A DNA stretch of 38,933 nucleotides from Rhodobiaceae bacterium (GTDB lineage Bacteria; Pseudomonadota; Alphaproteobacteria; Rhizobiales; Tepidamorphaceae): the NCBI GenBank assembly GCA_007118805.1, contig SKQW01000327.1, positions 1 to 38,933 on the forward strand. The letters run 5' to 3'. The first letter of the stretch is position 1. The number at the start of each line of letters is the position of its first letter. Under the pieces are notes generated by a model. The model saw only the letters and a program-made list of their open reading frames with translations, had not been told where the DNA came from and made no database searches. This document shows, in pieces, positions 13,026 through 38,933 of this stretch. The position numbers and the translations under genes were made by a program.

Positions 13026-13398
13026 GCCGATCCTCCTTGGTGGTGCGCGTAACGATTCGTTTACGGCTCCCGTCAATACTCGGTCAGAACCTATTAAGGG
13101 GCCGTAAACCAAGCGGCTTCCTCGGGAAGGGTAAAGGAATGGGAGTTCGCCGAGTCGGTTAGCCGAGGTTCTTGATCCGGCGCGAGAGGCTGGGGGTAGC
13201 GAGTCCTGTCGGTTCTGCAAGCGCTTCGCGGTTGCCGTCCCACGCAAATTCATCGGGTGCGGTTGACCGGAATGAGCATTTGTTAACCATTGAGGTTTAC
13301 AATTCCGATTCGCGAGGACCAGTCGGTGACCTGTCGAGCGCCGCTGGATTTAAACCAGCGGCGCCATGCCCAGAAGAGGCATATGGAAGGGGTTTGGC
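13026..13398. promoter_or_regulatory. fliI-ctrA divergent control region with CtrA box and GANTC cluster
   Basis: This 373-base gap has no gene. It holds a near-perfect CtrA box at 13094-13109 (TTAA-N7-TAAAC against TTAA-N7-TTAAC), a further TTAAC half-site at 13283-13287, and a -10-like TACAAT at 13298-13303. It also holds GANTC sites at 13054, 13152, 13201 and 13307, and a perfect 8-base inverted repeat GTTTACGG/CCGTAAAC at 13059-13066 and 13102-13109 whose right arm is part of the CtrA box. Autoregulation of ctrA and cell-cycle control of fliIJ are inferred from known CtrA biology. Confidence 0.6.
13338..13364 (+). promoter_or_regulatory. Strong hairpin in the ctrA leader
   Basis: GCGCCGCTGG (13338-13347) and CCAGCGGCGC (13355-13364) pair perfectly over 10 bases around the 7-base AT loop ATTTAAA. 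It lies 34 bases upstream of the ctrA ATG and is not followed by a T-run, so a simple terminator is unlikely. It may be an RNA structure that affects stability or translation, or a protein site at the DNA level. Confidence 0.6.
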
Positions 13399-14097
13399 AT
13401 GCGAGTTTTGCTGATCGAGGACGATGGCGCGACCGCACAAAGCATCCAGCTGATGCTCAAGTCGGAAAACTTCAACGTCTACACGACCGATCTCGGTGAA
13501 GAAGGCATCGATCTCGGCAAACTCTATGACTACGATATCATCCTTCTGGATCTAAACCTTCCCGACGTCAGCGGATACGAGGTCCTCAAGACCCTGCGCG
13601 TTGCCAAGGTCAAGACGCCGGTGCTCATCCTGTCGGGCCTGGCCGGCACCGAGGATAAGGTGCGCGGCCTCGGCTTCGGCGCCGACGACTACATGACCAA
13701 GCCGTTCCACAAGGACGAATTGGTCGCGCGCATCCAGGCCATCGTCCGCCGCTCCAAGGGCCACGCCGAATCGATCATCGAGACCGGCGATCTCAAGGTG
13801 AATCTCGATACCAAGACCGTCGATGTCGGCGGACAGCGGGTGCATCTGACCGGCAAGGAATATCAGATGCTCGAGCTGCTCAGCCTGCGCAAGGGCTCCA
13901 CCCTGACCAAGGAAATGTTCCTCAACCACCTCTATGGCGGCATGGACGAGCCGGAGCTCAAGATCATCGACGTGTTCATCTGCAAACTGCGCAAGAAGCT
14001 GTCGGCGGCGACCGGCGGCAAGAACTACATCGAGACGGTGTGGGGGCGCGGATACGTCCTGCGCGACCCGGAGCCCGAGCAGGCGTTGTCGGCCTGA
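13399..14097 (+). CDS. ctrA: Cell-cycle master response regulator CtrA
   Basis: CtrA (232 residues) is an OmpR-type response regulator that controls cell cycle, flagellum and chemotaxis genes in alphaproteobacteria. The receiver domain covers residues 1-120 with acidic pocket EDD at 7-9, phospho-acceptor Asp51 in LLDLNLPD, and Lys101 in DDYMTKPF. The winged-helix DNA-binding domain covers about 125-228 and includes [17 protein letters not shown] and [10 protein letters not shown]. The ATG at 13399 gives the invariant start MRVLLIEDD and has GGAAGGGG upstream. The C-terminus ends in LSA instead of the Ala-Ala end reported for Caulobacter CtrA, where it acts in ClpXP turnover. Confidence 0.97.
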
Positions 14098-14251: not shown

Positions 14252-14617
<366 letters not shown>

Positions 14618-32892: not shown

Positions 32893-33954
32893 ATGTTTCG
32901 CAAACTTGCACTCACGCTGGCGATAGCGGTTGCCCTGCCAGGATTGGCAGCCGCCGAGGACGATCTTGTCCAACTGGATGCCGGCATGGTGACGGGGGTC
33001 GACCAGGTCGCCCTGCCGATCGCCCTGGAGCAAGGCTTCTTCGAAAAATGGGGGCTCGACGTAAATATTGCCCGCCCCTATGCGACCGGTGTCGATGCGC
33101 TCAACGCACTGCAGGCTGGCGAAAGCAATATCGTCCAGGTCGGCGTGCCGATGATAGGCGCGGTCGTGCGCGGCATGGACCTGGTGGCGCTCGGCAACTA
33201 CAGCGGCAACCCGGCCCAGCTCGGATCGGATACCACGATGGCGCTGGTCTCCAAGGAAGGTTCCGGGATCGACCCTGACGATCTGTCCACGCTCGAGGGC
33301 AAGCGGATCGCCGCCTCGTTCGGCACGATCAACCACCTCTACGCGCTTGCCCTTCTCGAGACTGCCGGGCTGACGCCGGACGACGTCACGCTGGTCAACA
33401 CGCCCCCGCCCGACATGACTGTCGCCCTGATGTCCGACGGCGTCGATGCGTTCTCGGCCTGGGACCCGTGGCCGATCGTGGCCCTCAAGGACGTGCCTGA
33501 CGCCGTCCAGGTCATCCGGGGCGGGGAAGTCATCTCCTATCTGGGCTTCAACGTGGCCACGCGCGACTGGGTGGCGGAGAATGGCGAGACGATCGAGAAG
33601 TTCCTTGCCGCCCTCTCCGAAGCGGATCAGTGGATGCGCGAGAATCCGGATGAAGCTGCCCAGGTGGCCACGCGCTGGATCCCCGGCCTTGATCCGGATG
33701 TCGCCGCCGAGGCGATGCAGTACAACATCCTGCAGGCTGATCGCCGCCTGTCGGACCACAATTACCGCGCGCTCTGGAGCGCAGTAGATACCCTGCACCG
33801 GCTCGACTTCATCGATGACACCTTCGATGTCAACGAGCATATCGAGCCACGGCATATCCTTGCGGCGATGGAGAATCACCCGGAGCTGTTCGACGATCTT
33901 CCGGAAATCCCTGAAGAGGCCATGATAGGCGAAGGTTACGTTTTCCAGCCCTGA
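32893..33954 (+). CDS. NMT1/SsuA-type ABC substrate-binding protein
   Basis: The 353-residue periplasmic protein has a signal peptide at 1-21 (cleavage after LAAAE-type site near AAA/ED) and the NMT1/SsuA fold. VDQVALPIALEQGFFEKWGL near residues 36-55, LEGKRIAASFGTINHLYALALLE near 134-156 and FSAWDPWPIVAL near 192-203 are typical. Such proteins bind sulfonates, nitrate/bicarbonate, pyrimidine or thiamine precursors, and sequence alone does not tell which. GGGAGG-like sequence precedes the ATG. It is last in the operon, unlike many related operons where it is first. Confidence 0.92.
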   Translation: MFRKLALTLAIAVALPGLAAAEDDLVQLDAGMVTGVDQVALPIALEQGFFEKWGLDVNIARPYATGVDALNALQAGESNIVQVGVPMIGAVVRGMDLVALGNYSGNPAQLGSDTTMALVSKEGSGIDPDDLSTLEGKRIAASFGTINHLYALALLETAGLTPDDVTLVNTPPPDMTVALMSDGVDAFSAWDPWPIVALKDVPDAVQVIRGGEVISYLGFNVATRDWVAENGETIEKFLAALSEADQWMRENPDEAAQVATRWIPGLDPDVAAEAMQYNILQADRRLSDHNYRALWSAVDTLHRLDFIDDTFDVNEHIEPRHILAAMENHPELFDDLPEIPEEAMIGEGYVFQP

Positions 33955-33966
33955 GTTTGATTCCAG

Positions 33967-33990
33967 CGGGCGGGGCCTCGGCCCCGCCCG
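33967..33990 (+). terminator. GC-rich hairpin after the NMT1/SsuA-type gene
   Basis: CGGGCGGGGCC (33967-33977) and GGCCCCGCCCG (33980-33990) are perfect inverted arms with two central bases. The hairpin starts 12 bases after the stop codon and is not followed by a T-run. It probably marks the operon's 3' end or protects the binding-protein mRNA. Confidence 0.6.
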
Positions 33991-36511: not shown

Positions 36512-37705
36512 CTATCGCTCCACCAGCGCAATGTGTCTGTTGTACCAGTTCATGAAGGCGGAGATCGACAGGCTGATGGTGAGATAGACCGCCATGAAGA
36601 TGGTGATGGCCTCGATCGCCTGGCCCGTCTGGTTCATGGTCGTGTTGCCAACCGAGACCAGGTCGGGATAGCCAACTGCCACGGCCAGGGAGCTGTTCTT
36701 GGTCAGGTTGAGGTATTGCGACGTCGTCGGCGGTATGATCAGGCGCAGCGCCTGGGGCAGCACCACGAGGCGCAGCACCAAGCCCTGACGCAGCCCAAGC
36801 GACGCCGCCGCTTCCGTCTGACCCCACGAGACCGCCAGGATGCCTGCCCGGACAATCTCGGCAATGAAGCCGGCGGTGTAGAATGTCAGCCCGAACAGCA
36901 CGGCGGCATATTCCGGGCTGATGACCATGCCGCCCTGAAAGTTGAAGCCCTGCAGGACCGGCACGCTCATCTCGCTGGGCGCGCCGAAGGCGAGCCATAT
37001 GACGAGAGGTGGCCCGAGGAGCGCTACGAGACAGTAGCGTAATGCCGGCAGCCTTTGGCCAGTCCGATCCTGGTAGCGCCTGATATAGCGGTAAACCAGC
37101 ACAGCCGCGGCAATGCCGAACAGCAACGCCAGGCCGATCCAGAAGTGCGAGGGGTCTTCGGCCGGTACAGCGAAGCGGATGCCGCGATTGGAGATCACCA
37201 GCCCGGTAAATGGCTCGAGCGCATTCCGGGGGCCGGGCATCGAGACGGTGATGATCGCGTACCAGATGAAGAGCTGCAGCAGCAGCGGCAGGTTGCGCAT
37301 CACCTCGACGTAGCCGGACGCCACCTTGGCGACCAGCCAGTTGGAGGACAGTCTCAGAATGCCGACCACTGTGCCCAGGACCGTCGCCAGGACGATGCCG
37401 ATGAAGGCGACCTGGAAGGTGTTCAGCAGCCCGACCAGGAAAGCGCGGCCATAGGTGTCCGCCGCACCATAGGGTATGAGGCTTTCGCTGATCTCGAAAC
37501 CGGCCTCGCGCCACAGGAATCCAAAGCCGGTGGATATGTTCTGTCGCTCGAGATTGGAGACAAGGTTCGATACCAGATACCACAGCAGCAGAAGAAGCCC
37601 GCCGACCAGCGCGACCTGATAGATCAGCGCGCGCGTCTGGGGATTGTACCAGACCTTCAGTATCCCTCTCTCGGTGCGCTCACCAGGTCGCGTGCCAACT
37701 GCCAC
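36512..37705 (-). CDS. aapQ: General L-amino acid ABC transporter permease AapQ
   Basis: The 397-residue permease is the partner of AapM, with a long N-terminal region, a helix near 25-45 and a large periplasmic segment containing ISTGFGFLWREAGFEISE near 56-73. The conserved loop MRNLPLLLQLFIWY near 139-152 and the contact motif EAAASLGLRQGLVLRLVVLPQALRLIIPP near 297-325 define the family. The GTG at 37705 is preferred, since GGGAGA precedes it with about 7-base spacing and the family length is about 400. An upstream in-frame ATG would run into the hairpin region. Confidence 0.93.
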   Translation of the reverse strand: MAVGTRPGERTERGILKVWYNPQTRALIYQVALVGGLLLLLWYLVSNLVSNLERQNISTGFGFLWREAGFEISESLIPYGAADTYGRAFLVGLLNTFQVAFIGIVLATVLGTVVGILRLSSNWLVAKVASGYVEVMRNLPLLLQLFIWYAIITVSMPGPRNALEPFTGLVISNRGIRFAVPAEDPSHFWIGLALLFGIAAAVLVYRYIRRYQDRTGQRLPALRYCLVALLGPPLVIWLAFGAPSEMSVPVLQGFNFQGGMVISPEYAAVLFGLTFYTAGFIAEIVRAGILAVSWGQTEAAASLGLRQGLVLRLVVLPQALRLIIPPTTSQYLNLTKNSSLAVAVGYPDLVSVGNTTMNQTGQAIEAITIFMAVYLTISLSISAFMNWYNRHIALVER

Positions 37706-37875
37706 ACCGCGTCTCCCGGGATTGTCAGGCAACCGCTGGGCCGGCCCAAGGCCCTTGGCAAGCCTGTGGATGGCGCGGCCAATGCGGCGGCACGTAGCCC
37801 CGCTTTGTGCATGCGTTTGACGGCGCATCCATCATGGCGGCGATCGGACCGTGATCGAAGAACTTAGCGAGTGGC

Positions 37876-37908
37876 GCGTGGACCCGCCCCGCCGGGGCGG
37901 GTCCACGC
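37876..37908 (-). terminator. Very strong hairpin between aapJ and aapQ
   Basis: Perfect 15-base arms GCGTGGACCCGCCCC (37876-37890) and GGGGCGGGTCCACGC (37894-37908) enclose a 3-base loop. It lies 20 bases after the aapJ stop and about 170 bases before aapQ. Without a T-run it probably acts as an mRNA-end stabiliser and partial terminator, so that binding-protein mRNA exceeds permease mRNA. Confidence 0.7.
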
Positions 37909-37928: not shown

Positions 37929-38933
37929 TTACCGTACCGGCATCGCATACATCAGGCCGCCATTGGTCCAGAGATCGTTGAGGCCGCGCTGAAGGCCGAG
38001 TGGCGTGTTCGCGCCGACATTGCGCTCAAAGATCTCACCATAGTTGCCGACGGCCATAATGGCATTGTAGGCCCACTTCTCGTCGAGATTCAGATGCTCG
38101 CCCATGCCGGGGCTGGTACCTAGCAGCCGCTGGATTGCGGGATTGTCGCTGTCCAGCATTTCCTCCAGGTTCTCGGAGTTCACTCCGAGTTCCTCCGCTT
38201 CGACGAGCGCATACACCACCCACTTCACGACATTGAACAAATCGTCCTCGCCCTGACGCACCACCGGGCCGAGCGGCTCCTTGGAGATCGTCTCGTCCAG
38301 AATGACGTGGGCTTCGGGATCCTCGGCCACCGTGGAGCGGATCGATGCCAGCCCGGATCGGTCCGTGGTGTAGACGTCGCAACGTCCTGCGAAATAAGCG
38401 GCATTCACCTCATCGAGCTGCTCGATCACCACAGGCTCGAATTCCATGCCGTTGGCGCGGAAGTAATCGGCGAGATTGAGTTCGGTAGTCGTGCCCGGCT
38501 GCACGCATACCGAGGCCCCGCTCAGTTCAAGCGCGCTTTCGACACCCAGATCGGCCGGCACCATGAATCCCTGCCCGTCATAGAAGGTGACCCCGGCGAA
38601 ATGCAGGCCAAGGGAGGTGTCGCGGGTAAGCGTCCAGGTTGTGTTGCGCGACAGGAGATCGACCTCGCCGCCTTGCAGGGCGGTGAACCGCTGCTGCGCC
38701 GTCAGCGCCTGATACTCGACGGCGTCGGGATCGCCGAGGATGGCGGCGGCGATCGCCTTGCAGACGTCAACGTCGAGACCGGTCCAGTTGCCTTCGGAAT
38801 CAGCGTTGGAGAAACCGGCCAGGCCGGTGCTGACGCCACAATTGAGCGTTCCACGTTCGACGATGGTGTCGAGATCGGCCATGGCCGCACCGGCTGTTCC
38901 CATGACCATCGCCGCTGTGGCCGCGGCCCATAC
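37929..38933 (-). CDS. aapJ: General L-amino acid ABC transporter binding protein AapJ (5' end outside window)
   Basis: The periplasmic binding protein lacks only its first residues, because the open frame runs to the window end. The visible part of the signal peptide ends AGAAMA before DLDTIVERGTLNCGVSTGL. Family sequences are GLDVDVCKAIAAAI, ALQGGEVDLLSRNTTWTLTRDT and the C-terminal LNLDEKWAYNAIMAVGNYGE and GLNDLWTNGGLMYAMPVR. This is the extended SBP family 3 binding protein of general amino acid transporters. It is first in the aapJQMP operon and the promoter lies outside the window. Confidence 0.95.
   Translation of the reverse strand, partial: VWAAATAAMVMGTAGAAMADLDTIVERGTLNCGVSTGLAGFSNADSEGNWTGLDVDVCKAIAAAILGDPDAVEYQALTAQQRFTALQGGEVDLLSRNTTWTLTRDTSLGLHFAGVTFYDGQGFMVPADLGVESALELSGASVCVQPGTTTELNLADYFRANGMEFEPVVIEQLDEVNAAYFAGRCDVYTTDRSGLASIRSTVAEDPEAHVILDETISKEPLGPVVRQGEDDLFNVVKWVVYALVEAEELGVNSENLEEMLDSDNPAIQRLLGTSPGMGEHLNLDEKWAYNAIMAVGNYGEIFERNVGANTPLGLQRGLNDLWTNGGLMYAMPVR

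Follow-up and report, generated by a model that had tools for sequence, protein, structure and literature searches.

A three-hairpin ctrA leader RNA proposed in a Rhodobiaceae bacterium and its relatives

Control of ctrA through its leader

The levels of CtrA decide the timing of replication and division in many alphaproteobacteria; the best-studied routes of CtrA control are transcription, phosphorylation, and proteolysis, and a few inputs by small RNAs (sRNAs) have been published. Regulation acting on the ctrA leader has been published for Sinorhizobium and Caulobacter. In S. meliloti, the ctrA 5' UTR is described as forming the stem-loops SLA and SLB, on which the sRNA GspR and CspA5 act, the latter being thought to melt SLB (PMC5928217). 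The non-coding RNA CcnA acts on the P2 leader of C. crescentus ctrA and is proposed to pair with a GGGG near the ctrA ATG in S. meliloti (PMC8959179); regulation of the ctrA 5' UTR is reviewed in PMC7143759. The layer of CtrA control that the original prediction held to be not commonly described is, in fact, already published in these GspR/CspA5 and CcnA reports. None of the excerpts of open-licence literature covered by the search describes a conserved array of hairpins in the leaders of ctrA.

The window considered here is the whole stretch of DNA analysed (38,933 nucleotides) and contains, on the plus strand, a ctrA coding sequence of 232 aa plus stop codon (13399–14097); the original assignment of this ORF to ctrA agrees with its match to NCBIfam NF045991 (418.8 bits, cut-off 350). 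A single-domain response regulator (CheY/CpdR-like; 14252–14611, minus strand) is convergent with ctrA and close to fliI/fliJ. A leader structure recurring in several families of the order would mean that the ctrA mRNA itself carries a control element; it also supplies precisely defined stems that can be tested beyond the two model species.

The H1 hairpin and the predicted ctrA mRNA

The hairpin H1 (13338–13364, plus strand), analysed by sequence, folding, and shuffling, is GCGCCGCTGG-ATTTAAA-CCAGCGGCGC, a perfect stem of 10+10 bases closed by a 7-base AT loop; it is separated from the ctrA ATG (13399) by 34 nt (13365–13398) and is followed by CATGCCCA, with no T-run, all as originally reported. 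In ViennaRNA folding its ten pairs have pairing probabilities of 0.83–1.00 and the loop is predicted to be unpaired at 0.94–1.00. In the predicted 88-nt leader, a perfect stem of at least 10 bp with a loop of 3–10 nt is found in 7 of 20,000 dinucleotide shuffles; across the whole 38.9-kb window, perfect stems of at least 10 are not rare (3 observed vs 0.67 expected from 12 shuffles). The exact arms occur only once without mismatch in the 4.1-Mb genome, so H1 is not a dispersed repeat, and a REP element is also rejected with up to 3 mismatches (249 places vs 718 for the reversed control pattern).

Other stems without a U-tract are present elsewhere in the window. A perfect 15-bp U-less stem-loop (37876–37908), located between a substrate-binding-protein-like ORF (37929–38909, minus strand) and a permease-like ORF (36512–37828, minus strand), forms an intercistronic stem with a possible terminating or stabilising role; a perfect 10-bp GC stem with no T-run (33967–33990), 12 nt past the stop codon of the ORF 32893–33954, looks like a U-less terminator.

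Upstream of H1, the sequence TTAACC (13283–13288, plus strand) is a half site of the CtrA type in the proximal promoter of ctrA, and TTAACCW is present between -160 and -80 in 143 of 205 ctrA leaders. The probable -10 element, TACAAT (13298–13303, plus strand), is suggested by alignment by eye with the TAnnnT of relatives. The proximal transcription start site (TSS2) of S. meliloti ctrA lies 69 nt before the ATG (PMC5928217, PMC3616915); when this coordinate is carried over, as we infer it can be, to an S. fredii leader (L042) whose TTAACC starts at -97, the TSS falls 28 nt after TTAACC. In the window TTAACC starts at -116 and, by this homology, the ctrA transcript is predicted to begin near 13311, give or take a few nt, yielding a leader RNA of 88 nt (13311–13398, plus strand). 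With such a start H1 would lie within the ctrA mRNA; a TSS downstream of the hairpin, which the original prediction had named as its own refutation, appears unlikely. The earlier suggestion of a likely selected RNA structure in the ctrA leader is supported; H1 is real and probably a selected RNA element. An N-terminally extended ctrA starting from the in-frame ATG at 13366 was rejected, as the frame is broken by an indel in the leader of a member of the window's family (L022, by eye).

The Shine-Dalgarno (SD) sequence GGAAGGGG (13385–13392, plus strand) includes a GGGG (13389–13392) located 6 nt before the ATG, within the 3–6 nt before the ctrA start used to define a CcnA-type GGGG; the motif coincides with the SD and hence argues only weakly for a CcnA target. 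A CcrM-type GANTC site, GATTC (13308–13312, plus strand), is found at the predicted TSS and GANTC is present in all six leaders of the window's family. The arrangement of GANTC at the predicted ctrA TSS, 22–24 nt after TTAAC, is seen in the window (13283–13312) and in relatives, with 72 counts, taken per TTAAC site, in 205 distinct leaders; GANTC itself is not enriched in ctrA leaders with respect to a control stretch (78 vs 107 of 205), so only the spacing is informative.

Neighbouring hairpins and the leaders of relatives

H1 is flanked by two hairpins that the original prediction overlooked, H2 one base downstream and a weak H0 upstream. H2 (13366–13382, plus strand), identified by folding, covariation, and the covariance model R2 described below, is ATGCC-CAGAAGA-GGCAT and has covarying relatives. 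Among the 205 distinct ctrA leaders kept from 216 collected, 52 contain a CC-(C)AG...-GG core at most 50 nt from the ATG, and these represent 40 distinct versions. Of the 40, 35 have a Watson-Crick first flanking pair (15.2 in shuffles) and 28 a Watson-Crick second pair (12.9), values reached in 0 of 5000 shuffles in both cases; the third is borderline (15 vs 10.4; 306 of 5000) and the fourth pairs at chance level among the same versions. Where a leader has several cores the best-paired one was used, so pairing is somewhat favoured, and many of the 40 versions, as well as of the 22 class leaders considered below, are related to one another, so that the shuffles overstate their independence. 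H2 covaries strongly among leaders of the order.

H0 (13315–13332, plus strand), AGGACC-AGTC-GGT(GA)CCT, is a weak 5' hairpin with a CC-AGNN-GG core, recognised by core counts and by R2; its first base lies about 4 nt past the predicted TSS. An H0-like core near the predicted TSS is found in 29 of 205 leaders (shuffled mean 10.7, largest 20; 10 of 203 in a control stretch). Covariation is supported for its first flanking pair (17 of 22 vs 9.9 shuffled; 11 of 5000); the support is weak at the fourth pair (10 vs 5.8; 87 of 5000) and absent at the second and third.

The letters of H1, including its loop, are not conserved, and DNA similarity between the window and its relatives usually starts at or after 13360. 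Within the window's family, one leader (L023) has an 8-bp stem of unrelated letters ending at the same 34 nt, L022 has an interrupted stem at this place (by eye), and the other three (L020, L021, L024) have only short or imperfect stems; the consensus that RNAalifold gives for all six leaders of this family lacks H1. When one leader per cluster is considered, as in all the energy, best-hairpin, and position tests (114 or 115 clusters), perfect stems of at least 7 bp ending 30–39 nt before the ATG are found in 8 of 115 clusters (1.1 on average and at most 4 in 40 shuffles), a count that includes the window and becomes 7 of 114 when it is left out, and stems ending at 20–29 nt in 6 of 115 (1.2, largest 3). 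Among 98 control leaders, taken from other genes of these loci, the two bins contain 1 and 0, respectively. Some farther bins are also in excess in ctrA leaders, e.g., 7 vs 1.7 shuffled at 80–99 nt, and control leaders are raised at 60–69 nt (5 vs 1.0) and 10–19 nt (4 vs 1.4). The folding energy of the whole leader is no better than in upstream controls (mean z -0.34 vs -0.44 and -0.51), and leaders whose best hairpin has p ≤ 0.05 are not clearly commoner (18 of 114 vs 16 and 7 of 114 in two control stretches). In an underpowered replication with the criterion fixed beforehand, 57 of 66 new leaders resembled those of the first set and were removed, and the remaining 9 formed 6 clusters, one of which has such a stem, a result reached in 17 of 200 shuffles.

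The three hairpins are also seen in a related family, f6, for which 17 leaders were gathered. An alignment (A2) of 14 distinct leaders, one of which (L037) comes from a record titled Devosia, omits two exact duplicates and L290, near-identical to L277. In single-sequence folds, H0, a middle stem, and H2 follow one another before the SD in 12 of 15 leaders, with H0 mostly TATCC-AGTA-GGGT and H2 mostly GTTCC-AGCA-GGAAC; among the exceptions, L144 folds otherwise, L178 is without this H2, and L202 forms H0 differently. In a plain MAFFT alignment, five of the six pairs in the middle stem have changed on both sides, and 70.7% of its cells are paired. The covariation score of the whole A2 structure is 0.151 vs 0.109 (5 of 500 shuffles) and the number of further pair types is at chance level; RNAalifold on A2 reports H0 and H2, the middle stem being absent. 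The covariation looked for in the original prediction is thus found in the middle stem of this related family and strongly in H2, while the H1 sequence itself is too divergent for alignment across families. What appears to be conserved is the existence of the stem, not its letters, and those of H1 are lineage-specific.

A first covariance model (R1), built from the 14 f6 leaders and searched against 67 chosen loci, matches L028, L212, L022, L183, and L204 at E < 0.01, in addition to L178, itself in the model; in the window, its best match is the ctrA leader, although at a non-significant E of 2.5. The second model (R2) derives from an alignment of 19 leaders (A3) that excludes the window and includes L022 of the same family; A3 was fitted to the structure and so leans towards it, showing changes on both sides in 6 of 6 pairs of the middle stem and a whole-structure score of 0.389 vs 0.144 (0 of 500 shuffles). 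R2 matches the window leader at 13317–13398 with 20.9 bits and a rough E of 2.3e-6, the next match having an E of 0.034. A structure-free model of A3 gives 5.6 bits (E 0.48) on the same leader, hence most of the R2 score comes from pairing.

In an unselected scan of 211 ctrA loci, 16 of which are in the model and from which L105, L106, L109, L113, and L120 were omitted as second copies, the best R2 match away from a ctrA leader has 15.0 bits (L046). This value is exceeded at the leader in 16 of 195 non-model loci, the window's (L019) included; several of these leaders are near relatives and the end of the match at the ATG was checked for some of them. The three-hairpin class is a minority in the order. 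In the window's family, R2 matches two of six leaders, the window and L022, which is in the model, with no match up to E 0.1 in L020, L021, L023, and L024; the putative membership of the window in the class is therefore read from a model with one leader of its own family, four of the six family leaders being unmatched. On whole genomes, the ctrA leader is the sole R2 match below E 0.05 in five cases (G007, G194, G127, G043, G083); in a sixth (G000) it was not returned among the 150 of 2308 first-look candidates that were scored, which presumably explains why it was missed and makes this a weak test for the absence of other copies. Rfam families have no match in the window at gathering score, and at E ≤ 1 six loci give only two weak matches, both outside leaders.

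Other arrangements are seen in further relatives. In family f11, the leaders L119, L126, L130, and L133 carry a series of small hairpins upstream of the SD (in L119, TGTCCGG-CGGAAGA-CCGGACA, CCGAC-AGAAG-GTCGG, and GGGCC-CGA-GGCCC), possibly a further variant of the array. In Rhizobiaceae leaders (L042, L030, L041, and others), a CCTT stretch shortly upstream of the SD might base-pair with the AAGG inside it, a fold different from that of the three-hairpin class (by eye), and GCATGC may pair over the start codon in relatives.

Proposed role, alternatives, and known systems

H1 is read here, with evenly balanced confidence, as the central and rapidly evolving stem in a ctrA leader RNA of three hairpins (H0-H1-H2-SD) that would set mRNA lifetime and basal translation. 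The hairpins, their order, and the covariation of H2 and of the relatives' middle stem are shown by sequence comparison. In the proposed mechanism, the leader would be folded from just after the 5' end to the SD, exposing little single-stranded RNA to nucleases and, as it would not pair with the SD, leaving the ribosome site free; this packing would set the lifetime and the basal translation of the ctrA mRNA, and chaperones or sRNAs may alter the folding. In predicted folds of 22 class leaders, the mean z of SD opening relative to shuffled upstream sequence is +0.60 (sem 0.13), with 18 of 22 above zero, and the shift over 116 leaders is +0.24 (sem 0.09); the window's own SD is predicted to be no more open than in shuffles (0.49 vs 0.48). 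The slightly more open SD of the class and the position of H0 near the predicted 5' end favour mRNA protection or insulation over hiding of the SD, and a mechanical role of H1 (packing, protecting) fits better than sequence-specific binding since the stem is conserved and its letters are not.

The main rival, considered unlikely, is an inhibitory or chaperone-controlled stem, like S. meliloti SLB, or an sRNA target exposed in the open AUUUAAA loop. Both have precedents on the same gene (PMC5928217; CcnA, PMC8959179), the H1 loop is predicted to be unpaired, and a GGGG lies 6 nt before the ATG, as in the CcnA pairing proposed in S. meliloti; however, the 10-nt GspR target taken from the S. fredii leader is absent from the plus strand of 13311–13398 with up to 2 mismatches, the letters of the H1 loop are unconserved, and the SD in the class is slightly more open, not less. 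A further reading, held to be improbable, makes H0 and H2 duplicates of a single recognition hairpin, CC-AGNA-GG, placed about 45 nt apart at the 5' end and at the SD, with H1 as a variable spacer stem. A search for a regulon of tandem CCAGNAGG hairpins in 11 genomes returned many matches, mostly coding-like by eye, among which no second gene stood out.

That H1 arose by chance as a palindrome of GC-rich leader sequence, beside a genuinely conserved H2, is rather improbable: stems of at least 10 occur 0.67 times per shuffled window and the global tests of folding energy are negative, but only 7 of 20,000 shuffles produce such a stem within the leader, and relatives show both the positional excess and the covariation of the middle stem. 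There is little likelihood of H1 acting as an intrinsic terminator of the U-less (I-shaped) type, or as a pause site, that attenuates ctrA transcription in the leader. Most structured transcript ends in Methylosinus sporium are reported to be U-less stems (PMC12403871) and the window itself has a U-less 10-bp stem 12 nt after a stop codon (33967–33990), yet a terminator in the leader of an essential gene would require an antiterminator, no alternative fold opening H1 is seen, and the terminator scan is empty at H1. An intrinsic terminator with a U-tract is rejected, there being no T-run after the stem and no such call in the scan. Very improbable is a DNA operator, in which the 27-bp dyad, perfect and close to the predicted TSS, would be bound by a protein dimer immediately after the promoter, as relatives whose stem occupies this position (L023, L107) have entirely different arms and the genome has a single exact site.

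The proposed three-hairpin leader can be compared with several known systems. The double-hairpin targets of CsrA/RsmA have two small hairpins with similar loops, one of them just before the SD; H0 and H2 of the window resemble them in layout, their loop core being AGNA and not always GGA. A CsrA target was rejected since PF02599 is found in 0 of 16 genomes searched, with positive controls in E. coli, B. subtilis, and T. maritima. E. coli ompA has a stabilising stem-loop at its 5' terminus and, similarly, the window hairpins are near the predicted 5' end and upstream of the SD; unlike ompA, they are three in a row, with a TSS placed by homology and a stabilising role that is proposed. As in C. 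crescentus ctrA P2, leader structure is accompanied by a GGGG next to the start codon; in that species a stem is proposed to occlude the RBS, whereas in the window the hairpins lie upstream of an SD predicted to be partly open. Unlike in S. meliloti, the window leader is without a GspR-type target, GspR being reported only in Sinorhizobium; R2 does not match the S. fredii leader L042 up to E 0.1, and a scan of 70 chosen loci gave this leader 8.7 bits and an E of 0.38. Post-transcriptional control is described for S. meliloti ctrA and is proposed for the window leader, which shares with the S. meliloti ctrA 5' UTR the same gene, a structured leader before the SD, and a proximal TTAACC promoter.
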